A stretch of DNA of 52,108 nt from Phycisphaerae bacterium (GCA_026386845.1 JAPLMW010000065.1:1-52108); one strand, 5' to 3'; shown: positions 36,659 through 52,108, counted from the first letter of the stretch. Notes: a model not told the origin generated them from the sequence alone. Numbers and translations: made by a program.

Positions 36659-39201
36659 TTTATGGTGAGCTCCGTCGAACCATTCTTCTCTATCCCGCTA
36701 ACGTTCTGTTTCATCACTTCCGGTTTTACCGAAAGCTCCGCCAGCAGTTTTTCAGCCTGCCGATACTTCGGCTTGAGTTTGAGGCATATTCTCAGTTGTT
36801 TGACGGCCTCGTTTGCCTGTCCGCTTTCGGCCAGAGCCTGCGCAAATTTCAGCCTCAAATCAGCGTTGCCGTAGTCCGCCGCAACTGCCGCACCAAGATA
36901 TTCCGCCGCCTTTTGACTATTGTTGTTTTTGCGATAGTAATCGCCGAGCAGAATTAATTCGCCGATATCCGCGGTATTTTTCGATGCCTTCTGTTCCGCC
37001 ATGGCAACCAGTTTCGATCGTGCCTTTTCAGCTTCGCCGGCAAAATCACTATTCTGCGACAGCATATCAGCAACATATTTTAATCTCTTTGTATCGTCTG
37101 CGGCAACTTCAACGGCAAGGTCCGCTCTTTTTTCCTGTTCAATATAAATCCGGACAATATCTCTGAAAAATGTTCCGCCCAGACCAACGGATTTACTGAA
37201 CTTCTCGAAGGAGCGTTCAGTCTCGCCTGCGCTTATATCCAGACATCCGGCGGCAAAAAGCGTTATTTCGTCGTTGGGTTCGAGCATAAATCCTTTCTTT
37301 ATATTGTCCTCACCCGCAGGTTCAAGCAGCACAAATTTCTGCAACTGCCCCAGCAAACAATACACCGGCCCGAATGTCGGACATACGGCTCGTGCCTTTT
37401 TAAGCTCATCCACGATGCCGTAAACTTCCCCGATGGCTTTATTTGTCAGCCCGCCTGTTTCCGAATCCGTTTTGCCGGCTGCGTTCTGCCATTTCCAGAC
37501 ACCCAGCCAATATCTGTATTCAATATTATCCGGCTGTGCCTGCACGGCTTTGGCCGCATAAGAAATCAATTTCTCAAAATCCCTGTTGTCGCTGATTTCG
37601 TTGCTGGTTTTTGATTTATTTTCTATTTTGTGCGCTTCCCGCCACCATCCCTCGGCAATTCTTGCCTTATCCGCGTCGATTAAGACCCAGCCGTATAAAC
37701 ACGCAAGAACCGCAGATAATATTAATAATGCCGGTTTTGGCGGTCGGACAGCGTAAGCTGTTTGTTCGCCTTTTGATCGCCTGCCGAGTGTTATTATCAA
37801 TCCGCAGAAAATCGCGGAGAGCATCGCATTGGCCGGCAGATGCTGACCGAAGTCGGTAACGCTGTGAATGAGAACCGCCATAAGCCCGAATCCAAGACCG
37901 TACACCGCGACGCTGATGGAATCTTCCTTGTTCCGCACGGCCCTGATAAAATTTACCACCACAATGAAAGCAAAAATAAGCATTATTATAAAACCCGCCA
38001 GACCGGTCTCTTCCAGAAGCTGAGCGTATTCATTTTCGGCATATCTGAACTGAAGAGCTGTATATATGCTTTGGAACATCGGATATATAACCGTATGGCT
38101 TCCCAATCCCGTGCCGAAAAAGATAAACCGTCTTACAGGCTCGGTCATATCTTTCAGTACTTCCAGTCTTGTCTGGTATCCATCGAGCGAACTAAGTGTT
38201 GCCAGTCTTTCATATACCGTATCGAATCCCGTGTATAAAACACAGACAAGTGCCGCCAATGCGATGATAACGACTATCCAGCCGTGCTGCCTGAGAGACT
38301 TTCGGGCCGATAGAAGCAGAACCGTAACGCTCATCGCGACGAGCATTGATAGCATACCGCCCCTTGTGAGCGACGCAAAAACAGCCGCTGCCGATATGCC
38401 TGCCGCTGCGACCAAAAGCCATAACGCCCTTGCCCGGGAAGAATCGAAATAATCGAATACTGTCGCGACGGTAATTTCTCTTTTATCAAACTCACGGTGC
38501 AGTATCAGCAGCGCAAGCGACAAAATCGCTCCAATGGACATATTCATAAACTGCCCGAAGTGGCTGTGATTGACAAACGGCCCGCTGACAGCTTTTGACG
38601 GAACAGAAACAAACCAGTAAATTTTCCCGTTCCCGGCGACATTCTGTGCTATCGCCAGCAGAGCCGCCGCCGTCCCGATAATTACGATTGCCTTCAAAAG
38701 TCTTTTAATTTGTTCGGCGGATTTAAAAACATTCAGCACGACAACGAAAACCGCTCCAACGCTAAGAATGATTCTTAAGTTATCTTTTGTCCCGCGGGGA
38801 TAAAAACTGAGCGTAAAATTCTCTTTCTGATTTGCTGCCTCCGTGTTTTCTGAGAGAAGTTCATTTTTGAGTGAAACGGTTTGGGGCGAAAACACCGAAA
38901 TGGTTTTCTGCGGCATCGGAATAATGGTAAATATTGCCAGAAGAGTAAATGCTGCTACGGGCACATAAGCCCATGTGAAAAGAAAACCCTCAGCGGAAAA
39001 TATCTGCCTGACGAGAAAAATAAAAAACACAGCCGCGGAAATGACAACAACAATCTCCTGGCTCAGGTCGTGGACTGCACCGAACGCCAGCGGCATAAAA
39101 GCCAGAAGCGTTATCAGTAGAATCTCAATGACTCTGTCGCTAAGCCGTATATATTCAGCCGGCAGACCGGCAGTTTTATTTATTCTTCTTCCCGTAACCA
39201 T
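36655..39201 (-). CDS. O-antigen ligase/polymerase family protein with TPR domain
   Basis: About 848 residues from the ATG at 39201, which overlaps the kinase gene end by 26 bp; a much longer upstream reading covers the kinase C-terminus and is not credible. The N-terminal half has about 12 transmembrane helices with the Wzy_C pattern (VNHSHFGQFMNMSIG, FGTGLGSHTVIYPMF, NEYAQLLEETGLAG). The C-terminal half is helical TPR-like repeats (EYLGAAVAADYGNADLRLK, NEAVKQLRICLKLKPKYRQA) that probably recruit partners in the periplasm. Polymerase versus ligase cannot be decided. Confidence 0.8.
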   Translation of the reverse strand: MVTGRRINKTAGLPAEYIRLSDRVIEILLITLLAFMPLAFGAVHDLSQEIVVVISAAVFFIFLVRQIFSAEGFLFTWAYVPVAAFTLLAIFTIIPMPQKTISVFSPQTVSLKNELLSENTEAANQKENFTLSFYPRGTKDNLRIILSVGAVFVVVLNVFKSAEQIKRLLKAIVIIGTAAALLAIAQNVAGNGKIYWFVSVPSKAVSGPFVNHSHFGQFMNMSIGAILSLALLILHREFDKREITVATVFDYFDSSRARALWLLVAAAGISAAAVFASLTRGGMLSMLVAMSVTVLLLSARKSLRQHGWIVVIIALAALVCVLYTGFDTVYERLATLSSLDGYQTRLEVLKDMTEPVRRFIFFGTGLGSHTVIYPMFQSIYTALQFRYAENEYAQLLEETGLAGFIIMLIFAFIVVVNFIRAVRNKEDSISVAVYGLGFGLMAVLIHSVTDFGQHLPANAMLSAIFCGLIITLGRRSKGEQTAYAVRPPKPALLILSAVLACLYGWVLIDADKARIAEGWWREAHKIENKSKTSNEISDNRDFEKLISYAAKAVQAQPDNIEYRYWLGVWKWQNAAGKTDSETGGLTNKAIGEVYGIVDELKKARAVCPTFGPVYCLLGQLQKFVLLEPAGEDNIKKGFMLEPNDEITLFAAGCLDISAGETERSFEKFSKSVGLGGTFFRDIVRIYIEQEKRADLAVEVAADDTKRLKYVADMLSQNSDFAGEAEKARSKLVAMAEQKASKNTADIGELILLGDYYRKNNNSQKAAEYLGAAVAADYGNADLRLKFAQALAESGQANEAVKQLRICLKLKPKYRQAEKLLAELSVKPEVMKQNVSGIEKNGSTELTIK

Positions 39202-41404
39202 AGCCGTATCCATAGTAACCATAATGAGAATAGTAACCGTATCGGCTATGTCTCGGCGAAACATCGTTAACAATCGCTCCGAGCACGTGCGCTCCGACGC
39301 CGACCAGAGCTTCTTTTGCCTGTTGCGCCGCTTTTTTCGTCGATTTCTCCGCACGAAGCACGAGAATGGTCGCGTCGCAGATAGCCGCCAGTATCTGGCT
39401 GTCCGCCACAGGCGTAATCGGCGGTGAATCAATCACTATTCTGTCATAGCGGTGCGTCAATTCCTTCAGCAGGTTTGCAAACGCTTCGCTGTTGAGCAGT
39501 TCGCTGGGGTTCGGCACATCGGGCCCGCTTGTCAGCAGGTCCAGCCCTTCTGTCGGGCAGTGTCTTATCGCCTCGTCGAGAGAAATCTGGCCTGCAAGCA
39601 CGCTCGACAGACCTTTTTCAGTTTCGTTTGTGAAGGCGAATACATTATGCTGCATCGGTTTTCTGAAGTCTGCATCGACAACAAGCGTTTTCTGGCCTGC
39701 TTGAGCCATCGCTATGGCAAGGTTGCTTACCATAGTAGTTTTGCCGTCGTTTGGCGCCGGTGAAGTAACCAGAATAGTTCTTGCCTGTCCCTTCGGCACG
39801 CTGAAGAACACGGCGGTTCGTATAGTCCTGTATGCTTCAGCAACAGAAGATTTAGGTTCAAGGTGAACTTTTTGTCCGTGGTCGGTAACGGCCTTTTTGC
39901 CCTTTCCGCCCATAGACGGCACGATTCCGAGCACCGGCACAGCCAGAATAGCCGATATTTCATCGGTGCTTCGCAGTCGCCAATCCATCAATTCTCTGAT
40001 TACAGCAAAGCCGATTCCGAACAGAATTCCGAGTATGAGACTTACTGCTACAATTTTTGCTCTTTTGGGGCTTGTCGCCAGTTCGGCGGGTCTTGCCGCT
40101 TCAAGTATGTTTACGTTAAGCGCTCCGGTGTCTTCCGAAACGTTCAATTCCTTTATCCGTTCATCGAGTATTTCGCAGAACCTTTTGCTCCGTTCGAGTT
40201 TGGACTCAATAACCGCATATTCCGTCGCCTTGACATTGAGGTCCTGTGCGGCTTTTTCTTCCTGTTTATATGACGCCATCAGCTCATCTTCTCTCTGCTT
40301 GGCGGTCTGATATTTAATATCCAGAACTTCAATATATGCCTTTGCCTGATTGTTTAACTGCAAGGCAAGCTGTCTTTCGATATCCGCTATTTTGCTTTTC
40401 AGCGCCTTGACCGTCGGATGGTCATCGCTGCACTGCAGAAGTGCGCTTTCAAGCTCGGTTTTTGACCCATCCAGTTCGATACGAAGCCGTTTTTCGCTGT
40501 CTCCTTCGAAAAGCCCCTGGTTTGTATTCAGCTGAGTCATCGCATACTGCTTGATTTTCAGCGGGTCTTCGGCAAGTTTCTGCACGGCTTCGAACTCGGC
40601 CTTTGCGTTAATGGCGGAAAGCTGGGCCTCGGCCAAAGAAACGCTGAGAGTTTTAAGCCTCTGGAACACTGCATTTTCATTGCTTCTTTCGAACGATACA
40701 ACACCGTATTGCCGCGTAAAATTCAAAAGCTCTTCAAAATTCCCCGCAAGCTCTTTGTCGCGTTCTATCTTTTCTTTCTGCAGAATTCTCAGCACTTCCG
40801 AAACGGTGCTTTTCTTTTGACTTGTCTGATAATTTACATAAGATTCGACTATAGCATTGACGATCTGGGCCGCTTCCTCTCTGTAATTCGATTCACAGCT
40901 TACCGCTATAATGTCGTCCTTGATGCCGATTTTTACATCGATTATTTTCTTCAGATAAACCACGAGATTATCAATCTCGCCTACTTCGATTATCGGCTCT
41001 GCCAGCCCGATTCGGTTCTTTATTTCTTCCGCGATAGTCGTGGGTTTTTTCTTGAGTGTCTCCAGCTTTTTTATGTCGCTTCTTTGCACAACCTGTGCAA
41101 GTATTGGCGTGGACCTAACAAGCTCTCCCTGTGTATAGAGATAATTCTTCGACTGTGTCATAATCCCTTCGTATTCGGTAATGATTCTGGGGCCTGTCTG
41201 CTCAACATAGAGCCTCGCGGTGCTTGTGTAAGTCGGCACAGCCCTTGAGATATAGAGAATCGCCGCTGCTATAAAGACCACTGTTACAATAAGGATGCTC
41301 AGTTTTCTTCTTTGCAGTGTTACCGCAAAAGTTCTGCCTTTGCCCTGTGTCAACTGCTCGGCAGCGACTGCCTGATTTCCCGTATTTATGTTGTTCTCTG
41401 TCAT
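39176..41404 (-). CDS. Wzc-like polysaccharide co-polymerase / bacterial tyrosine kinase
   Basis: 742 residues in one chain: an N-terminal Wzz domain with TM1 (about 36-54) and a long coiled periplasmic region, TM2 (about 451-470), then a BY-kinase domain with Walker A SPAPNDGKTTM (548-558), Walker A' VVDADFRKP and Walker B YDRIVIDSPPI. The tail RYGYYSHYGYYGYGYGYGKK is a Tyr cluster, the usual autophosphorylation site. It controls chain length and export with the Wza-like protein 20 nt upstream. Confidence 0.95.
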   Translation of the reverse strand: MTENNINTGNQAVAAEQLTQGKGRTFAVTLQRRKLSILIVTVVFIAAAILYISRAVPTYTSTARLYVEQTGPRIITEYEGIMTQSKNYLYTQGELVRSTPILAQVVQRSDIKKLETLKKKPTTIAEEIKNRIGLAEPIIEVGEIDNLVVYLKKIIDVKIGIKDDIIAVSCESNYREEAAQIVNAIVESYVNYQTSQKKSTVSEVLRILQKEKIERDKELAGNFEELLNFTRQYGVVSFERSNENAVFQRLKTLSVSLAEAQLSAINAKAEFEAVQKLAEDPLKIKQYAMTQLNTNQGLFEGDSEKRLRIELDGSKTELESALLQCSDDHPTVKALKSKIADIERQLALQLNNQAKAYIEVLDIKYQTAKQREDELMASYKQEEKAAQDLNVKATEYAVIESKLERSKRFCEILDERIKELNVSEDTGALNVNILEAARPAELATSPKRAKIVAVSLILGILFGIGFAVIRELMDWRLRSTDEISAILAVPVLGIVPSMGGKGKKAVTDHGQKVHLEPKSSVAEAYRTIRTAVFFSVPKGQARTILVTSPAPNDGKTTMVSNLAIAMAQAGQKTLVVDADFRKPMQHNVFAFTNETEKGLSSVLAGQISLDEAIRHCPTEGLDLLTSGPDVPNPSELLNSEAFANLLKELTHRYDRIVIDSPPITPVADSQILAAICDATILVLRAEKSTKKAAQQAKEALVGVGAHVLGAIVNDVSPRHSRYGYYSHYGYYGYGYGYGKKNK

Positions 41405-43762: not shown

Positions 43763-45028
43763 ATGAGAACGGTAGCGATAATAAATCAGAAAGGCGGCTG
43801 CGGAAAGACAACTGTTGCGATAAATCTTGCCAGTGCCTTGGCGGCTGAAAACAAAAAAACTTTACTCGTTGATATAGACCCGCAGGGACATTGTGCGGTC
43901 GGCCTTGCTGTGCCGGAAGAACAGATTGAGCAGAGCATCTATGATGTGTTGATAAGCTCCCGCCGCGGAGAGCCTGTCAAGCCCACAGAGATTCTATGGG
44001 AAATCGGCGATAACTTCGAGCTTGCGCCGGCAAGCATCGACCTGGCCGCGTTTGAACAGCAAACAAATGGCGTTACTGACCGTGAAAACTGCCTTAAAGA
44101 TGTTCTTAAAACCGTCGAACAGGACTTCGATTATGTCGTTGTCGATTGTCCTCCCGCCGTAGGAATTTTAACATTCAACGCCATTAGAGCCTCCACCGAT
44201 GTTATTGTGCCGGTGGAAACAGGATATTTCTCGCTGCACGGCCTGAGCAGACAGCTTGATACGCTCAGCGTTTTATGCAAGCAATGCTCGCAGCACATAA
44301 ACGTTATGGTGCTTGCGAGTATGTATGATATCCGAACCAAGATGGGCAGAGAAATTCTCGCCGACCTTCGAAAGCACTTCTCCGGCAGAATGTTCCAGAC
44401 CGTTGTTAATTTCAATACCAAGCTTAAGGAAGCCGCCAGTCTCGGCCAGCCAATCTGCGAGTATGACCCTGCCAGCAGGGGACACAAGGATTTTCAGTGC
44501 CTTGCTCAGGAGCTGATAGCGACCGATACGATGGTCGAGCCGAAACAAATCGCAAGTGCGATTCAAAAAACAGAACCCCAAACGCAAATTGTTGAGAAAT
44601 CGCAGGATAGAAAGGAAATCGTCAAAAACTTCGACGATAAGCTCGATGCTATCAGTTCATCGGCACAGGAGTTGATGGCAAGTCTTAACGAACCGCAGCC
44701 GAAAACCAGGGCGAAGATTATGCGCGATATTGACGGCAGATTAAACGATTTTTACGGCACAAGGCAGTTCGGCGGCGCGGTTAAATTCGTTACGCTTTAT
44801 CCGCGAGCCAGAAGCGTTCAGATTGCGGGAGATTTCAACAACTGGCAGCCGCAGCAGACAACTATGAAACCCGCCCAGGACGGCAAATGGGAACTTGCTC
44901 TGACGCTTGCCCCGGGCAAGTATCGTTATCGTATGGTTGTTGACGGCCAGTGGCAGCAGGACCCCTACAACGAGCAGGTGGAAATGAATCCCTTCGGCGA
45001 ATTCAACTCCGTCCTCGAAGTCAAATAG
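43763..45028 (+). CDS. ParA-family ATPase fused to a C-terminal CBM48 glycogen-binding domain
   Basis: 421 residues. Residues 1-250 are a ParA/Soj-type ATPase with deviant Walker A INQKGGCGKTTVAINLASA (Lys10 and GKT), LLVDIDPQGHCAVGL (Walker A'), YVVVDCPPAVGI (Walker B) and the NVMVLASMYD region. Residues about 250-330 are a charged linker. Residues about 335-421 are a CBM48/AMPK-type glycogen-binding domain: VQIAGDFNNWQPQQTTMK, GKWELALTLAPGKYRYRMVV, DGQWQQDPYN. Start ATG, with a weak ribosome site. It stands alone, divergent from the exopolysaccharide operon. It is 33 kb from parB. Confidence 0.93.
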   Translation: MRTVAIINQKGGCGKTTVAINLASALAAENKKTLLVDIDPQGHCAVGLAVPEEQIEQSIYDVLISSRRGEPVKPTEILWEIGDNFELAPASIDLAAFEQQTNGVTDRENCLKDVLKTVEQDFDYVVVDCPPAVGILTFNAIRASTDVIVPVETGYFSLHGLSRQLDTLSVLCKQCSQHINVMVLASMYDIRTKMGREILADLRKHFSGRMFQTVVNFNTKLKEAASLGQPICEYDPASRGHKDFQCLAQELIATDTMVEPKQIASAIQKTEPQTQIVEKSQDRKEIVKNFDDKLDAISSSAQELMASLNEPQPKTRAKIMRDIDGRLNDFYGTRQFGGAVKFVTLYPRARSVQIAGDFNNWQPQQTTMKPAQDGKWELALTLAPGKYRYRMVVDGQWQQDPYNEQVEMNPFGEFNSVLEVK

Positions 45029-45035
45029 CCGTCCG

Positions 45036-46799
45036 CTACGGCTTCCAGATTACCCTGTAAAGCGTCTTTTCGCGCACAGCAAGCGCCTCAAATCCTCCAC
45101 CGAAAGCCGTGGGAAGGCAGACAATTCCTTCATACTTCGGCCCGGCTTTGTTATCAACAACAATCACTTGTTTGTCGCCTCTCATCGCCGCATAAGCCGC
45201 GTGATTGCCATCAGGACTAAACACTATCGCACCTTCCAGAATTTCATCGTATGCCGGACCGTTTTGGTCATCGATAACTACCTGCCATCTATTATCTTTC
45301 TGCGCTGCGTATGCTGTATGCTTGCTGTCCGCGCTGAAAACAGGATAGCCTTTTCTGATAGCATCGTATTCCGCTCCGGCATTGCCGTCAACAACGACAA
45401 CCTGCTTGTAGTTATTCTTGGCTGCATAAGCCGCGCGATTGCTGTCGGGACTGAAAACAACCGTGCCGTCCAGAACACTATCGTACGGTGACCCGGCCCG
45501 GCCATCAACAATAACCTGCCATTTGCCGCCTTTCCACACCGCGTATGCTATATGTTTGCTGTCAGGACTAAAAATGGGAGTGCCTTCTTTAATGTCGTCA
45601 TATTCCACCCCGGCATTGCCGTCAATGACAAGCTGCCACTTATCACCGTTCTTGGCTGCGTACGCCATACGATTGCCGTTCGCGCTGAAAACGACAGAAC
45701 CTTGTTTGATAATGTCATATTCCGGCCCGGCGATGTTATTATCAACAATAACAATTTGCTTGTAGTTGCTGTTTCTGGCCACATACGCAATGTGGTTGCT
45801 GTCGGGACTAAAAACCATCGTGCCTTCCGGAATATTGTCATAAGCCGGTCCGTTCTGGTCGTCAATGATAACCTGCCATTTGTTGTTCTTCTTTGCTCTG
45901 TATGCGATGTGTTTGCCGTTTGGACTAAAGACAGGAAAGTCTTTTCCGATTTCGCTGTATACCGCTCCTGCCAGGCCATCGATTACTACCTGCCGGTTGA
46001 TGCCTTTGCGGCCTATGTATGTTACGCATTTGCCGGTCGGACCAAGCATAGCAGAACTGATATCGTCATACACCGGCCCTGCCTGACCATCAACTGCCAC
46101 CAGCTTTTGAGCGCCCAGCCACACTATATAGGCCACGTGATTACTGTCGGAGCTGAAGGCCGGTGCACTTCTCATTGTTAGAAGGTCGTATTCCGGCCCT
46201 GCCTGACCATCGACAACAAATATCGTTTTCTTATTCTTCTGCGCCATATACGCCACGCGCTTGCTGTTCGGGCTGAAAGCAATAACACCGACGCCCTCGT
46301 ATACCGGACTGGCGACGCCGTCGATAATAACCTGTCTTGCGCTGCCGTTTTGGACTGCGTATGCCAGGTGGTTGCTGTCAGGACTAAAAATTACAGAGCC
46401 TTGTCCGACCGTCTCGTGCACCGGTCCGGCATTGCCATCGACAATGACCTGGAATTTTCCATCTTTCGCCCCGACGACCAAAGCTATATGCCGCCGGTCG
46501 GGGCTGCGGACGATATCAAATATCTGGTCGGGTAACGTCCCCAGCGCAACTTCGGTAAAATTGCCGGTCTTGTTTGGTTCATTGAGCCTGGCAGGTTTGT
46601 TCGGCTCAACTGAATTCGCCTGCCCTGAGCCTGCCTGTGGTGAGCGTAGTCGAACTGCTTGTGGTGAGCTTGCCTGCACTGAGCTCTGTCGAGGGGTCGA
46701 ACCAGCCGAATTCGCCGAAGTCTGCCCGTAAGACGCCGCCGCTGCAAGTAAAAATACCGTTACAACCGCCATATACAGAACACATTTACAGCCATTCAT
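45036..46799 (-). CDS. Secreted PD40/WD40-like beta-propeller protein
   Basis: 587 residues with a signal peptide (MNGCKCVLYMAVVTVFLLAA). After a Ser/Gln-rich linker (about 28-75, partly encoded by REP-like repeats at 46621-46703) come about eleven repeats of roughly 42 residues in the form FSPDSNHIAYVA-KG-KWQVIVDG-AGP-YD-I--G. Each unit has a PD40-type SPDS(N/K) turn. It probably forms one or two beta-propellers in the envelope. It starts 15 nt after the YbbR gene end, with AAGGAGT as ribosome site, so the two are co-transcribed. Confidence 0.82.
   Translation of the reverse strand: MNGCKCVLYMAVVTVFLLAAAASYGQTSANSAGSTPRQSSVQASSPQAVRLRSPQAGSGQANSVEPNKPARLNEPNKTGNFTEVALGTLPDQIFDIVRSPDRRHIALVVGAKDGKFQVIVDGNAGPVHETVGQGSVIFSPDSNHLAYAVQNGSARQVIIDGVASPVYEGVGVIAFSPNSKRVAYMAQKNKKTIFVVDGQAGPEYDLLTMRSAPAFSSDSNHVAYIVWLGAQKLVAVDGQAGPVYDDISSAMLGPTGKCVTYIGRKGINRQVVIDGLAGAVYSEIGKDFPVFSPNGKHIAYRAKKNNKWQVIIDDQNGPAYDNIPEGTMVFSPDSNHIAYVARNSNYKQIVIVDNNIAGPEYDIIKQGSVVFSANGNRMAYAAKNGDKWQLVIDGNAGVEYDDIKEGTPIFSPDSKHIAYAVWKGGKWQVIVDGRAGSPYDSVLDGTVVFSPDSNRAAYAAKNNYKQVVVVDGNAGAEYDAIRKGYPVFSADSKHTAYAAQKDNRWQVVIDDQNGPAYDEILEGAIVFSPDGNHAAYAAMRGDKQVIVVDNKAGPKYEGIVCLPTAFGGGFEALAVREKTLYRVIWKP
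46621..46703. repeat. REP-like repeat cluster in the propeller gene linker
   Basis: Several degenerate copies of CCTGAGC/GGTGAGC...AGTCGAA lie head to tail here, in frame, coding for the peptide STPRQSSVQASSPQAVRLRS. The position between the signal peptide and the propeller tolerates it. Confidence 0.6.
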
Positions 46800-46814: not shown

Positions 46815-47819
46815 TTACTCGGGCGGCCGGTTGCCGTCTGCCACCGGCACAAGCCTGAACTTCGCCTCCACAGGGTCGCCTTTGAGGCGAATTTTTTCTT
46901 CGCGAACATATTGTATCGGAAAATTATACGTCACCTGCCGGGTTACTTCAGGCTTGCCTACATCGTCGTCCTGTATCTCAAGCAGAGTTTCAAACCCTCT
47001 TTCTTCATAAGCGGTCTTTGCCTCTTCGGTCGCTATTATTGTTATGCTGCCGATTTCAGGCCGTTTGATAAATTCCACCTTATATTCGCCGGCGAGATTC
47101 GCGCTGAAAATAAAGCCCAGCGTGCCGCTGATTGTGTATTGCTTCATATCTTCCTGTGTTATCGGCAATTCAACCTTCACCGCAGTATCAGCGTATCTTA
47201 TTTCGCCGACGGCAAATTCAACATAAGGCTTTTTGTCGATAGTCCCGCCGCGAGCCTGTTTCTTCTCCGCCGGCGTTGCTATTTTTACCTCCGCATCCGT
47301 AACCTGTTCAGGCACAAGCATAGTAATAACATCCGGCGTTATATGGGCGCCGGCGATTTCGCTGTCCGTTTCATCCACGCACTTTATCGGCAGCGTCTTT
47401 TCCTTCAGCTCCACCACTTTTATTCGCTGCAGTTTGTCCGGCCTTGCCGCCCTGACAGTCAGTCCGTATTCCTGAATCTTTTTGCTCTCCGCGACAAACT
47501 TTCTCATGTCCGGCAAAGTATATTCGCCCGCGGTGTTCATATTCTGTTGCTCCGCGTCGAACATAACCTCAAATTTTTCCTTGCCGCCTTCTATCTTTTT
47601 GGAAAGTTCGCGCACCTTTGCCACCGGCCCGCTCAGGTCGGCTTTTATCTGTATTTCCGGCTTGCCTTCCAGCGTAATCCACAGTTTGGGGTTTGCCTTG
47701 CTTGCGGTGATGGTTATCGTCTGGTTATTGAGGTTTTCGTCAAGGCTCAAATCCGCCCAAACCCATATCAGGCAGGTTATAAATATCACAAGAACCGCTT
47801 TTTTGATTTTGGCAAACAT
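46815..47819 (-). CDS. cdaR: YbbR-domain protein, CdaR-like
   Basis: 334 residues: one N-terminal transmembrane helix (KKAVLVIFITCLIWVWADLS) and an extracytoplasmic region of YbbR-like repeats (about 80-150, 160-240, 250-330), beta-strand rich with motifs such as VRAARPDKLQRIKVVELKEK. YbbR/CdaR proteins regulate the diadenylate cyclase CdaA and are usually encoded just after it. Here the 3' end of cdaA is 3.8 kb away on the same strand, with the methyltransferase cassette in between. No ribosome binding site is visible; see the promoter at 47828-47855. Confidence 0.8.
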   Translation of the reverse strand: MFAKIKKAVLVIFITCLIWVWADLSLDENLNNQTITITASKANPKLWITLEGKPEIQIKADLSGPVAKVRELSKKIEGGKEKFEVMFDAEQQNMNTAGEYTLPDMRKFVAESKKIQEYGLTVRAARPDKLQRIKVVELKEKTLPIKCVDETDSEIAGAHITPDVITMLVPEQVTDAEVKIATPAEKKQARGGTIDKKPYVEFAVGEIRYADTAVKVELPITQEDMKQYTISGTLGFIFSANLAGEYKVEFIKRPEIGSITIIATEEAKTAYEERGFETLLEIQDDDVGKPEVTRQVTYNFPIQYVREEKIRLKGDPVEAKFRLVPVADGNRPPE

Positions 47820-47855: not shown

Positions 47856-47884
47856 GGGGGTTTTCTTTTTGTTTAGCCCCTGCC

Positions 47885-47897
47885 TGCCCTGAGCGGA
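47885..47897. repeat. Left REP-like flank of the methyltransferase cassette
   Basis: TGCCCTGAGCGGA is repeated in the same orientation at 51607-51619 on the other side of the cassette. Confidence 0.75.
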
Positions 47898-47916: not shown

Positions 47917-47945
47917 TTGCCTTTGCCCTGTTTCCCTGCTATAAT
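47917..47945 (+). promoter_or_regulatory. Promoter of the ParB-like/methyltransferase cassette
   Basis: TTGCCT (47917-47922), a 17-bp spacer and a perfect extended -10 TGCTATAAT (47937-47945). The leader of about 85 nt holds the inverted repeat ATTCCTTG (47953-47960) / CAAGGAAT (47982-47989), a possible operator or hairpin. Confidence 0.7.
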
Positions 47946-48036: not shown

Positions 48037-49182
48037 ATGTCTAAAATATCTAATAAAACCCACGATGGAAAACACCCTCAACAGTATATTGACATAGAAA
48101 AGCTCCACTTGGATGCAGATAACCCACGACTTCCAGAGAATATACAAGGCCAAAATGAAGCAGAACTGCTAAAATCACTTTACAAAGGTTTTAATTTAAA
48201 TGAACTTGTCGATTCTATGAGCCAAAATGGTTATTTTGATGAAGAGCCTTTGGTTGTAATTCCGCGAAACGTGCCCGGCAAGTTATCCAAGGCTGATATT
48301 TCTTCGACGGAATTCGAGGAGTTTATAAAAAAGGACACAACCACCTTTACAGTGGTTGAGGGAAACCGCCGGCTTGCGGCTGCCAAGTTACTAATAGATC
48401 CAAAGTTAAGAAGCCAACTCAATATCAAGCAGTGGCAAGAAGTACTACCAGCGATTATTGACGATTTGAAACTTTTACCCGCTATCGTTTACCCCAAAAG
48501 ATCAGATGTAATTCCTTATATGGGAGTACGCCATATTGTAGGCATACAAAAATGGGGTTCTTATGCAAAAGCACGATACATTGCAAGGTTAATCGACCAA
48601 GGAAAAACTCTTCAAGAAGTGGAAACACAAATTGCAGACAGTCAAGGGTCGGTAAGGAAAAATTATATTAGCTATAAGCTTCTTCAACAAGCCAGAGATG
48701 AGTTTGATTATGACACAAAATCGGCGGAGGAAGGTAAATTTTCATTATTAATACTTGCCATTGGGCAAGGAAAAATTAAGCGTTATTTAGGACTACCAAC
48801 TAGCCTAAAAGACACAAGCCCAAGTGCTCCAGTTCCCAAAGAAAAAATTAAAAGCTTGCAAAACTTAACGAGTTGGGTGTTTGGTGATGATCGGAATTCA
48901 CCGGTCATCGGGGAGTCGCGAGATATCACAGACTATTTATCTAGTGTTGTAGAGAGCCCAGACGCACTTAAACACCTTGAGCGAACACGAAACCTCCAAG
49001 AAGCCTACGACTTAAGCGATGGGGAAGAACAAATGATTCTTAGATATTTGGCGTCTATAAATAGTAAGTTGCAAACGGTTTTAGGATTAGCGCATCTTCA
49101 CAAAACAGCAGATGTTATTAGTGAGGTGGAAAAGTGTGCTGAAACAGCGAAACAACTGCTGAAAACAGTGAAAGAAAAGTAA
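48037..49182 (+). CDS. ParB/Srx-like domain protein of a modification cassette
   Basis: 381 residues. The N-terminal half has a ParB/Sulfiredoxin-type domain: YIDIEKLHLDADNPRLPEN, LVDSMSQNGYFDEEPLVVI and VVEGNRRLAAAKLL (EGNRR at 108-112). The C-terminal half is helical and unlike chromosomal ParB; no parS partner role is implied. Domains of this kind act as nucleases, CTPases or DNA-sequence sensors in several defence systems. RBS AAGGA. Its stop overlaps the next start as TAATG, so translation is coupled. Confidence 0.8.
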   Translation: MSKISNKTHDGKHPQQYIDIEKLHLDADNPRLPENIQGQNEAELLKSLYKGFNLNELVDSMSQNGYFDEEPLVVIPRNVPGKLSKADISSTEFEEFIKKDTTTFTVVEGNRRLAAAKLLIDPKLRSQLNIKQWQEVLPAIIDDLKLLPAIVYPKRSDVIPYMGVRHIVGIQKWGSYAKARYIARLIDQGKTLQEVETQIADSQGSVRKNYISYKLLQQARDEFDYDTKSAEEGKFSLLILAIGQGKIKRYLGLPTSLKDTSPSAPVPKEKIKSLQNLTSWVFGDDRNSPVIGESRDITDYLSSVVESPDALKHLERTRNLQEAYDLSDGEEQMILRYLASINSKLQTVLGLAHLHKTADVISEVEKCAETAKQLLKTVKEK

Positions 49183-50033
49183 TGATAAGAATTTCAGATC
49201 CAAATTCAACCACCTTCGTTTCGGACTGGATAGAACTGTATATCGCTGTAACTGGCGAGTTTATTTCCAAAACGAAGCTCAGCCAACTGCTTGAAAGAGA
49301 CACAGGAGAAGAGCCAAAGGAATCTTTTATTTGTGATGTTTGGACAGAACTAGAATACAGAAAGAAATTATATAATACGTGTCCATTCCAAATCGATAGT
49401 CTTGCCATAGAATCTAATGCTAGTTTTGCACCAAATAGCGCATATTTGGCCTGTTTGATCATGGTTATCTTCGGCGCTGAAAACGGTTCACAGAGCACCT
49501 CCAAGCTTTTCGAAAGACTCGTCTGTAAAGCCATTCAAAAGTATATTTCTGGGGAAGCTGTTGTCTTTGGATGGCCTGTTATAAAAGGTGAAAAAACTTC
49601 AATTCGAGACAGAATTGTTGATTTATCTGTCAGGCTTAATGAAAGATATGTAGAATCACCAGCAGAAAAGTACAAAGACCGTGGAGTGGATGTAGTTGCA
49701 TGGAAACCTTTTTTAGAAAAACCACCAAGACCAAGTCAAGTAGTCATACTGCTTCAATGTGCTGCTGGCCAAGGCTGGCGAAGCAAGACTGGTGATTTGC
49801 CCTTGCGTGCATGGGAGCAGTATATACATTGGTCTTGCAATCCCATCAAAGCATTTGCAGTACCTTATATAATTCCTAAAAGAGATTGGCATGATGTGTC
49901 TAAAGAAGGTGGGATATTATTTGATAGGATTCGAATAATAAACCTGATTTGCAGTGCTGCAGACGATAAGATACTTGACAGAGAATTAGCCTCATGGGTA
50001 AAAACCAAGTTAAAAGAGTATGAGATTCGTTGA
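49182..50033 (+). CDS. Putative restriction-endonuclease-like protein (variant PD-(D/E)XK?)
   Basis: 283 residues with no family I can name firmly. The middle shows a pattern like PD-(D/E)XK nucleases: a helix with Glu111 (LFERLVCKAIQKYISG), then RGVDVVAWKPF with Asp170, then a strand QVVILLQCAAGQGW where the usual E-x-K is Q192-C-A. This form (D... then QCA-G--W) suggests a nuclease with an altered active site. It is translationally coupled to both neighbours (1-nt and 14-nt overlaps), so it most likely acts with the methyltransferase. Confidence 0.55.
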   Translation: MIRISDPNSTTFVSDWIELYIAVTGEFISKTKLSQLLERDTGEEPKESFICDVWTELEYRKKLYNTCPFQIDSLAIESNASFAPNSAYLACLIMVIFGAENGSQSTSKLFERLVCKAIQKYISGEAVVFGWPVIKGEKTSIRDRIVDLSVRLNERYVESPAEKYKDRGVDVVAWKPFLEKPPRPSQVVILLQCAAGQGWRSKTGDLPLRAWEQYIHWSCNPIKAFAVPYIIPKRDWHDVSKEGGILFDRIRIINLICSAADDKILDRELASWVKTKLKEYEIR

Positions 50034-51282
50034 CTTATTTGCAGGGTTAGGCGGGTTTCATTTGGCCGCAAAAGGTCTGGGGGGACAGTGTGTCTTTGCT
50101 TGTGAGATAGACGAAAAGCTCCGCACAAATTATGAAGCTAACTTTGGAATTAACCCAGCAGGTGATATAAAGAAAGTTAATCCCAAAGAAGTCCCACATC
50201 ACGATTTGCTCTGCGCGGGTTTTCCTTGTCAGCCTTTTTCCAAAGCCGGAGACCAGATGGGCTGGAAGGATGCTGTCCGGGGTACAGTATTTTTCAATAT
50301 TGTTGAGATTTTGCGGCATCATCAGCCGAAGTTTGTGGTATTAGAGAATGTTGCGCATTTTGTCAAACACGACAAGGGTAATACTTATACCAAGGTTAAA
50401 ACGGCTTTGGAGAAGTTGGGATACGATGTGAAACATGAACAACTCTCGCCACATAGGTTTGGCGTACCACAAATAAGGGAAAGAATGTATATGATTGGGC
50501 AGCTTGGAGGATTAAATGGATTCCAATGGCCCAAGCCACAGACAACAGGTGATGAGCTTTCAGTACGAGATATTTTAGACGAGAATCCTTCTGACGCTAT
50601 TGGTTTGAGTGAACAGGTAACGAATTGCCTAAATACATGGCAGGAATTTATCGAATTATTTCCAAAGAAAGAAGAGTTGCCGTCCTTTCCTATCTGGAGC
50701 ATGGAATTCAAGGCAACATATCCTTATAAACAGGATTCTTTATACGAGGTTGAATTAGAAAAACTCCGCAAGAAGCGAGGTAGTTTCGGAAAAACGCTTA
50801 ATTACAGGTTTAGAGAGAATTTGATGGCACATCTGCCAAGCTATGCAAGATACCGAGAGAACTCATTTCCCGACTGGAAACAGATATTCATAAAACACAA
50901 TAGAGATCTTTACGAAAATCATAAGAAAAAGATTGACCGTTGGCTGGACAAGATTCAGAAGTTTCCCCCAAGTTTGCAGAAGCTTGAATGGAATTGCAAA
51001 GGAGGGGAACGTAATATCTGGAATTATATGATACAGTTCAGAGCATCTGGCGTAAGAATTAAACGCCCGACAACATCACCATCATTAGTTGCTATGACCA
51101 CTACTCAAGTTCCTATTATCGGATGGGAAAAGCGTTACATGACGGTGAGAGAATGTGCCCGGCTGCAATCAATGGATAAACTAAAGCACTTTCCTGCTGG
51201 TTCTGCAGCTATGGCTGCACTTGGAAATGCGGTTAATGTAAAAGTTGCAAACCTTGTTCTTAAGAGCCTCTTAAAAGGATGA
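50020..51282 (+). CDS. C5-cytosine DNA methyltransferase
   Basis: 420 residues with the full set of C5-methyltransferase motifs: I DLFAGLGGF, IV GFPCQPFSKAG (catalytic Cys70), VI VLENV (Glu109), VIII QIRERMYMIG, IX RECARLQSMDKL and X GNAVNVKVA. The target recognition domain lies at about 170-340. It methylates cytosine at C5 in a sequence not predictable here. It overlaps the preceding gene by 14 nt, and with the ParB-like and nuclease-like genes it forms a compact modification or restriction cassette. Confidence 0.95.
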   Translation: MRFVDLFAGLGGFHLAAKGLGGQCVFACEIDEKLRTNYEANFGINPAGDIKKVNPKEVPHHDLLCAGFPCQPFSKAGDQMGWKDAVRGTVFFNIVEILRHHQPKFVVLENVAHFVKHDKGNTYTKVKTALEKLGYDVKHEQLSPHRFGVPQIRERMYMIGQLGGLNGFQWPKPQTTGDELSVRDILDENPSDAIGLSEQVTNCLNTWQEFIELFPKKEELPSFPIWSMEFKATYPYKQDSLYEVELEKLRKKRGSFGKTLNYRFRENLMAHLPSYARYRENSFPDWKQIFIKHNRDLYENHKKKIDRWLDKIQKFPPSLQKLEWNCKGGERNIWNYMIQFRASGVRIKRPTTSPSLVAMTTTQVPIIGWEKRYMTVRECARLQSMDKLKHFPAGSAAMAALGNAVNVKVANLVLKSLLKG

Positions 51283-51362: not shown

Positions 51363-51507
51363 ATTTTGTTATTTTCTACCGTATAAATCGACTACCTAAA
51401 GGTAGCATTGTGGAAAATTTGAGTATTTGAAGAATACAGGTTTTACTGTAATTTAAGAGTGATTTTTAGCAAAGACGAAGACGAACGGCAGTTCCGCAAC
51501 TTTTAAC
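51363..51507. other. Cassette right-flank spacer
   Basis: With the terminator and the REP cluster this makes up the 315-bp gap between the methyltransferase and cdaA. It is AT-rich and contains no gene. Confidence 0.5.
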
Positions 51508-51631
51508 TGCCTGCCCTGCCTGTCCCGAGCATGGTCGAGGGAAGCGAATTTATCCTGAGCATCGTCGAAGGAAGTCGAAGGGTTCACTTTTAACTTTTCA
51601 CTGCCTTGCCCTGAGCGGAGTCGAAGGGGTT
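51508..51631. repeat. REP-like cluster at the 3' end of cdaA
   Basis: At least three degenerate units: GTCCCGAGCATGGTCGAGG (51522-51540), CCTGAGCATCGTCGAAGG (from 51554) and TGCCCTGAGCGGAGTCGAAG (from 51607). The last contains the direct repeat also found at 47885-47897, and it codes for the final residues of CdaA. Confidence 0.7.
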
Positions 51632-52108
51632 GTTTCTTTCTTTGCTGCCCCTCGCCGCAGTTTGGACATCACGCTGGCGTCAATAAACATACTCGTCAGT
51701 CTCTTGCGCAGTTCTTCTTCGGTTACGGGCCGTTCGAGTTTGCCGTCTTCGGCTATACTCAGAGTTCCCGTTTCTTCGCTGACCACTATCGCGATGGCGT
51801 CGCTGCCTGTGGTTATGCCTATTGCCGCTCTGTGTCTTGAGCCTAATGCTCCGCCGACAAGGCTGGCTTCCGCCAGCGGCAGTTGTACGCGCGCAGCTAC
51901 GATTCTATCGCCGTGTATTACCACTGCGAGGTCATGCAGGGGTGAGCCGGGGTGGAATATTGTCTTGAGCAGTGCCGCTTTGACTTTCGCGTCTAATTGC
52001 ACGCCCATTTCGGTAAATTCGCCTAAGGCTACCTGTCTTTCGAGAACGATGATTGCCCCGACCTTTTTCTCGGAAAGGGTAACAACTGCGCTTATTATCT
52101 CCTCGACT
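51598..52108 (-). CDS. cdaA: Diadenylate cyclase CdaA, 3' part (5' end outside window)
   Basis: About 169 C-terminal residues are visible; the frame stays open to the window edge (EKKVGAIIVLERQVALGEF precedes the internal ATG at 52008). This is the DisA_N catalytic domain: LDAKVKAALLKTIFHPGSPL, LGSRHRAAIGIT with the RHR motif, and IAIVVSEETGTLSI. It makes c-di-AMP from two ATP. The usual DGA motif reads DLA (SPLHDLAVVIHG). The C-terminal TTPSTPLRARQ is translated from a REP-like repeat. The N-terminal membrane helices expected for CdaA lie beyond the window. Confidence 0.9.
   Translation of the reverse strand, partial: VEEIISAVVTLSEKKVGAIIVLERQVALGEFTEMGVQLDAKVKAALLKTIFHPGSPLHDLAVVIHGDRIVAARVQLPLAEASLVGGALGSRHRAAIGITTGSDAIAIVVSEETGTLSIAEDGKLERPVTEEELRKRLTSMFIDASVMSKLRRGAAKKETTPSTPLRARQ

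Follow-up and report, generated by a model that had tools for sequence, protein, structure and literature searches.

PD-lambda-5 is a validated system of broad phage defence in E. coli (Vassallo et al., 2022, PMC9519451), which the PADLOC model (PD-Lambda-5_A/B) defines as a ParB-like protein together with a D12 methyltransferase. A pair of this type is also present in Marinobacter phage AS1 (L005, 3983-6448), where the ParB-like protein of 486 aa and the D12 methyltransferase are annotated just as a hypothetical protein and a DNA methyltransferase. A recent survey treats ParB-CTPase folds as nucleotide switches of a general kind (PMC12704722), and the portion of it available presents no member shown to drive restriction. 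The locus analyzed here combines a ParB-like protein (A), a nuclease-like protein (B) and an m5C methyltransferase (C). The original prediction had suggested that it may be an uncharacterized restriction-like or epigenetic system, and we found no description of the A-B-C trio in the open-access literature, though A is a relative of the ParB-like protein of the validated PD-lambda-5 and a description in REBASE or in subscription journals is possible.

The window is the whole stretch of 52,108 nucleotides from a Phycisphaerae bacterium (JAPLMW010000065.1:1-52108), and the host genome (G000) is assembled into 96 contigs totalling 2.4 Mb. The features of the cassette and its flanks are as follows.

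46815-47819, - strand: ybbR-like gene (CdaR-type partner of cdaA), left flank; directly after cdaA in most relatives
47858-47897, no strand given: left flanking copy of the REP-like repeat TGCCTGCCCTGAGC, from a dispersed repeat search
47917-47945, + strand: possible cassette promoter TTGCCT-17-TATAAT with a TG-extended -10, from a consensus scan; about 90 bp upstream of A
48037-49182, + strand: gene A, ParB-like protein, 381 aa, from the ORF position
49182-50033, + strand: gene B, nuclease-like protein, 283 aa; TAATG, one-base overlap with A
50020-51282, + strand: gene C, m5C methyltransferase, 420 aa; 14-base overlap with B
51505-51619, no strand given: right flanking copies of the REP-like repeat TGCCTGCCCTGAGC, extending into cdaA at its 3' end
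51598-52107, - strand: cdaA diadenylate cyclase (PF02457, 1.2e-37; TIGR00159, 2.3e-46), right flank; 5' part past the window edge
Protein A: modelled ParB-CTPase fold at about 13-170 (EGNRR box 108-112), ParB-type HTH at about 170-306, helical C-terminal region 308-381
Protein B: modelled winged helix 1-84, PD-(D/E)XK nuclease 85-283
Protein B, motif: E111 / D170 / Q192-C193 / K202 / D248-R249-x-R251

The open reading frames lie exactly where three overlapping plus-strand genes had been predicted, with overlaps of 1 and 14 bp, and B contains the GVDVVAW...QCAAG segment described for it. A promoter and a terminator belonging to the cassette had been proposed as well. The extended -10 is indeed present, yet the consensus scan gave 8 promoter-like sites in the region against 9.0 in shuffled sequence, which is no excess; the terminator was not recovered, as a scan of the + strand found no terminator-like site 3' of 51282. 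The A/T-rich look relative to the neighbours is borne out by the GC content, which is 40.6% for the cassette against 45.1% in the remainder of the window and is not extreme overall (12th lowest among 196 equal-sized windows), and by the third-position GC, which is 32-40% in the cassette compared with 54-58% in the adjacent genes.

The cassette separates two genes, cdaA and ybbR, that are almost always neighbours in the relatives searched. The gap between them is 3 bp in the relative G009, and they lie 3.8 kb apart in the present genome. Another relative, G001, carries its own trio at a different site, with an S24 repressor gene and genes of the pheA/tpiA type nearby. Since the cdaA-ybbR pair is split here and adjacent in nearly all relatives searched, the third-position GC is deviant and the G001 copy lies elsewhere, these sequence comparisons support the acquisition of the cassette, in agreement with the transfer suggested originally. 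With at most one mismatch allowed, the REP-like repeat TGCCTGCCCTGAGC is found 39 times across the 2.4 Mb genome, whereas the reversed control gave 0; the copies on both sides of the cassette could have provided a substrate for recombination. The last residues of cdaA are encoded by one related copy of this repeat. Further to the left, the window encodes an unusual fusion of a ParA/MinD-type ATPase (43763-45028, + strand; AAA_31, 1.7e-48) with a C-terminal glycogen-binding domain (AMPK1_CBM, 2.5e-13; CBM_48). With this ParA as the query, a second protein related to ParA/AAA_31, 742 aa long, is seen at 39176-41404 (- strand), and 45036-46799 (- strand) encodes a 587-aa protein of WD40-like PD40 repeats of the beta-propeller type.

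Neither A nor B belongs to a confident Pfam or NCBIfam family, and their PHROG matches (phrog_3694, phrog_14650 and phrog_3984) carry no known function; for A, phrog_3694 is matched at 4.6e-74. In the AF2 model (mean pLDDT 88.8), A is a ParB-CTPase fold joined to an HTH. The best PDB fold matches are to KorB, with a Z value of 11.1 over 206 residues, and the Myxococcus ParB-CTPgammaS structure gives a Z value of 10.4 with 26% identity over 95 aa. The profile of A matches ParB/Noc with E values of 0.003-0.04, and A matches PADLOC PD-Lambda-5_A at 3.8e-18. The EGNRR box is present in 102 of 104 A proteins, and the two arginines of ParB box II (R111 and R112) in all 57 proteins compared. Asn110 stands where the GERR motif of ParB has its catalytic Glu; thus, nucleotide hydrolysis by A may have been lost.

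The 283-residue protein B had been predicted to be a nuclease with Gln in place of the usual Glu, and the structure check is consistent with this on both points. The AF2 model, built from 61 relatives, has a mean pLDDT of 90.9, and the AF2, fold and profile searches all point to a nuclease fold. The fold neighbours of the nuclease domain are MspJI, BsaWI, SdaI, FokI, BsmI, Card1 and Can2, with middling structural Z values of 7-8; Foldseek ranks MspJI highest (1.1e-4), and its Z values of 7.7-7.8 are among the best. MspJI is also the sole PDB match of the B family profile, at a weak E value of 0.028. In the profile alignment, D170 and Q192 of B coincide with D334 and Q355 of MspJI, which are catalytic in MspJI together with K357. 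Residues 5-84 of B match winged-helix domains. These models identify B as a predicted DNA-cleaving subunit.

The conservation pattern follows the putative active site. D170, Q192, C193, D248 and R249 are invariant in 61 diverse B members, whereas the first-helix Glu is kept in only 43. K202, ten residues past the Gln, is found in 58 of the 61, and the three members without it (L056, L074 and L090) carry a Lys at residue 194 instead, which is the canonical QxK position and corresponds to K357 of MspJI. A fourth member (L020) has Lys at both 194 and 202. The QxK position is therefore occupied by Lys in 4/61 members and Q+10 in the rest, the B of the window included, and none of the 61 lacks both. 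The probability of this pattern by chance is about 1e-4 if the positions are independent, and the four members with the QxK lysine are related; thus, the pattern probably reflects a single event. The alignment shows that the B lineage always keeps a putative catalytic lysine. The lysine shift from Q+2 to Q+10, with a double-Lys intermediate, offers a clear case of active-site migration in a PD-(D/E)XK nuclease. Fourteen further members from other collections could be aligned, leaving out the doubtful member L014, in which the active-site columns fail to align; D170 and K202 are present in 14/14, and position 192 is Gln in 13 and Asn in one (L012). A search for further loci of the QxK form returned the same four contigs only. 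We also considered the QxK lysine as a mark of all members with a methyltransferase other than m5C, and rejected it, as L012 and L013 (N6/N4) have K202.

The third protein, C, matches PF00145 at 1e-68 and M.HhaI at an E value of 1.2e-53. All key motifs are present (FAGLGG, PCQ, ENV, QIRER and GNAV), and a long variable (target-recognition) region spans about 166-360. By these matches, C is a C5-cytosine DNA methyltransferase with complete catalytic motifs.

To place the three genes among other genomes, we used 80 viral contigs retrieved by the profile of A; B as a single-protein or small-alignment query against genome and viral contigs returned nothing or one locus, because B diverges fast. 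The predicted three-gene neighbourhood recurs in this sample. B adjoins A in 79/80 contigs, mostly with overlapping reading frames or a spacing of a few bp, and the one exception is truncated by the end of its contig. Within 1.5 kb of A, sequence search finds a methyltransferase in 76/80 (73 m5C and 3 of the D12 adenine type), and Pfam adds one of the N6/N4 type in L090, so that a DNA methyltransferase is kept together with the nuclease-fold gene in 77/80 loci. The three A loci without one are short or cut at the contig end. L012 and L013 also have N6/N4 methyltransferases, and L015, a Bacteroidetes MAG, has the gene order Vsr-A-B-C. Several loci show additional features. In one prophage contig (L061, 6053-8194; L103 is the same contig), B is split into parts of 247 and 153 aa separated by about 0.9 kb, likely by an insertion in that copy. 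In the gut phage contig L001 (1-7555), a single locus contains an m5C methyltransferase fragment, a Z1-domain protein and two diverged A-B pairs in convergent orientation. On the rhizobial plasmid L006 (1-5873), an A-B pair accompanies a Z1 protein and a DUF4420 nuclease, which suggests that A-B also joins larger restriction-like loci.

The trio also recurs in E. coli. Among 5,426 complete genomes, the A-B alleles are present in 103 and 36 and the methyltransferase in 139, an exact match of totals rather than one made genome by genome; the regions inspected contain all three genes. In the W-phi prophage of the laboratory strain E. coli W and in other E. coli prophages, the trio has the portal gene of the P2-type prophage on one side and its replication-endonuclease gene on the other, and one of these two genes is within about 5 kb in 50/80 viral loci. 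This site is a defence hotspot that houses tin, old and several validated systems (PMC9519451). Two near-isogenic P2-type phages (L021 and L034) are 98% identical in DNA up to 4841 and 94% from 7132 on, and the DNA across A-B, between these positions, has no detectable similarity. Their A and B proteins are 32% and 21% identical, respectively, whereas the methyltransferases are 98% identical. Near-isogenic P2-type prophage pairs that differ only in A-B exist in nature, one of them in E. coli W; the P2 A-B allele other than that of W-phi is of the 12474III type.

The distances among 63 non-redundant trios separate the three genes in the same way. The Mantel r value is 0.975 for A-B, compared with 0.53 for A-C and 0.52 for B-C, and of 43 well-supported splits in the A tree, one conflicts with the B tree and 30 with the C tree. 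The contrast seen in the two P2-type phages recurs on a smaller scale between the window and G001 cassettes, where the identities of A, B and C are 37, 34 and 82%, respectively. A-B blocks of 21-32% identity have been swapped beside a near-constant methyltransferase in P2-type prophages, and A-B is partnered with three unrelated methyltransferase classes (m5C, D12 and N6/N4). As judged from these trees and distances, A and B co-evolve and are inherited as one unit, and the methyltransferases are freely exchanged.

Because A-B behaves as one unit, the nuclease residues are guarded, the methyltransferases are swappable and the trio occupies a defence hotspot, we regard the cassette as likely to be a restriction-modification system in which the ParB-like protein and the nuclease are the two subunits of the restriction module. 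The broad phage protection given by PD-lambda-5 supports a defence role for the cassette and not membership of that system. C would methylate host cytosines and so mark the DNA as self. A is predicted to be a nucleotide-controlled DNA-binding or loading subunit, which would bind or load onto DNA through its HTH, probably under the control of a nucleotide used in the ParB-CTPase pocket; the role of DNA sensor or loader suggested for it originally is plausible, since the modelled ParB-CTPase fold carries an HTH. A would then form a complex with B, the winged-helix PD-(D/E)XK nuclease, and direct or activate it; B would cut unmodified (foreign) DNA, methylation by C would block the cutting, and the outcome would be phage resistance. 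The A-B family provides a compact, widespread case of a ParB-CTPase fold locked to a restriction-type nuclease.

Several observations count against this restriction-modification reading: the weak sequence similarity of B to MspJI and its middling Z values, the first-helix Glu kept in only 43 of 61 members, and the Asn of A at the place of the catalytic Glu. In addition, near-identical methyltransferases stand beside A-B proteins that share just 21-32% identity, a finding one would not expect if A-B alone reads the methylation site. Either the diverged A-B alleles both read the site of the shared enzyme, or the methyltransferase or the methylation state sets the target. In a tentative version of the latter, which we lean against, A would act as a nucleotide-switched clamp of ParB type that loads on unmethylated DNA and recruits B, with the target set by the methyltransferase or methylation state and not by A-B. 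Such targeting would explain both the exchange of A-B blocks beside a near-identical methyltransferase and the use of three classes, and, if true, it would be a restriction mechanism without a description in the open literature searched. How strongly diverged restriction modules share one methyltransferase is the question that these loci pose. That A-B alleles of 21-32% identity share a methyltransferase 98% identical between them, and that one A-B type is seen with three classes, also fits a reader of the methylation state or of the methyltransferase rather than of a private site in a different scheme, in which A-B is a dormant toxin-like nuclease restrained for as long as methylation continues. 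A phage that inhibits C or outpaces it, or that has modified bases, would set off A-B, with destruction of all DNA and death of the cell. The related PD-lambda-5 was termed a compact 'RM+Abi' by Vassallo et al. (PMC9519451), which is in keeping with this scheme, but no domain of an abortive effector, HEPN and TM included, is seen and ordinary restriction-modification explains the same genes, so we consider it unlikely.

The closest fold of B belongs to MspJI, a modification-dependent enzyme, and ParB-like DUF262 proteins make up the type IV GmrSD systems (PMC12373910). A and B could accordingly be imagined to cut foreign DNA with certain modified bases, C only shielding or tuning them. We find this quite improbable, since B has a winged helix at its N-terminus and not the base-flipping SRA-like domain of MspJI, an adjacent m5C methyltransferase would create such targets rather than avoid them, and a methyltransferase is almost always present. 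Least credible of all, and hardly to be expected, is a role in phage life or partition, with A as a plasmid or prophage ParB and B and C helping in replication or packaging. The ParB annotation of A and the many prophage copies are the points in its favour; however, no ParA gene occurs near A at any of the 80 viral loci and the ParA-binding motif is found in 0/104 A proteins, on which grounds we also rejected membership of a ParABS partition system. Moreover, the planctomycete-like and Bacteroidetes copies lie among ordinary chromosomal genes, and the P2 backbone is otherwise complete without the cassette.

The restriction-modification reading can finally be set against the known systems. The cassette resembles PD-lambda-5 in the homologous N-terminal part of the ParB-like first protein, in the adjacent DNA methyltransferase and in the prophage setting. 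However, PD-lambda-5_A exceeds A in length (about 430-500 aa) and is matched by A mainly over the N-terminal 160-200 residues, PD-lambda-5 has no separate nuclease gene B, and its methyltransferase is of the D12 (m6A) class whereas the C of the window is m5C. Membership was rejected accordingly, as A covers profile positions 5-173 or 69-286 of profiles of 428-508 aa, and C is a PF00145 protein with no PD-Lambda-5_B among the best 25 of 64 PADLOC families. With ParB, Noc and KorB, A shares the ParB-CTPase fold and the ParB-type HTH, but it has Asn for the GERR glutamate and neither a ParA partner nor the motif for one. The ParB-CTPase fold is likewise shared with the ParB-fold defence proteins DndB and GmrSD; A is not fused to HNH and its partner is a separate PD-(D/E)XK protein, and a type IV GmrSD assignment was discarded, with no DUF262 or HNH/DUF1524 Pfam match in A or B. 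The Z1/DUF4420/MORC restriction-like loci (Iyer et al., 2008, PMC2292703) include A-B pairs in two cases, L001 and L006, whereas the window cassette is without the Z1 helicase, DUF4420 nuclease and MORC ATPase. The MspJI family (type IIM/IV) is similar in the nuclease domain, where the alignment is exact for the D and Gln of the D-QxK site; B differs in the winged helix that takes the place of the SRA-like domain, in the Lys ten residues downstream in most members, and in its partner ParB protein and methyltransferase, and the absence of the N-terminal SRA-like modified-base domain sets it outside that family. Lastly, the cassette is like the type II m5C restriction-modification systems (HhaI, EcoRII) in joining a methyltransferase and a PD-(D/E)XK nuclease in a small cassette, with Vsr at one locus. 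In contrast to these systems, its restriction enzyme seems to depend on a second subunit of ParB type, its methyltransferase class is interchangeable, and its A-B blocks swap beside a constant methyltransferase.
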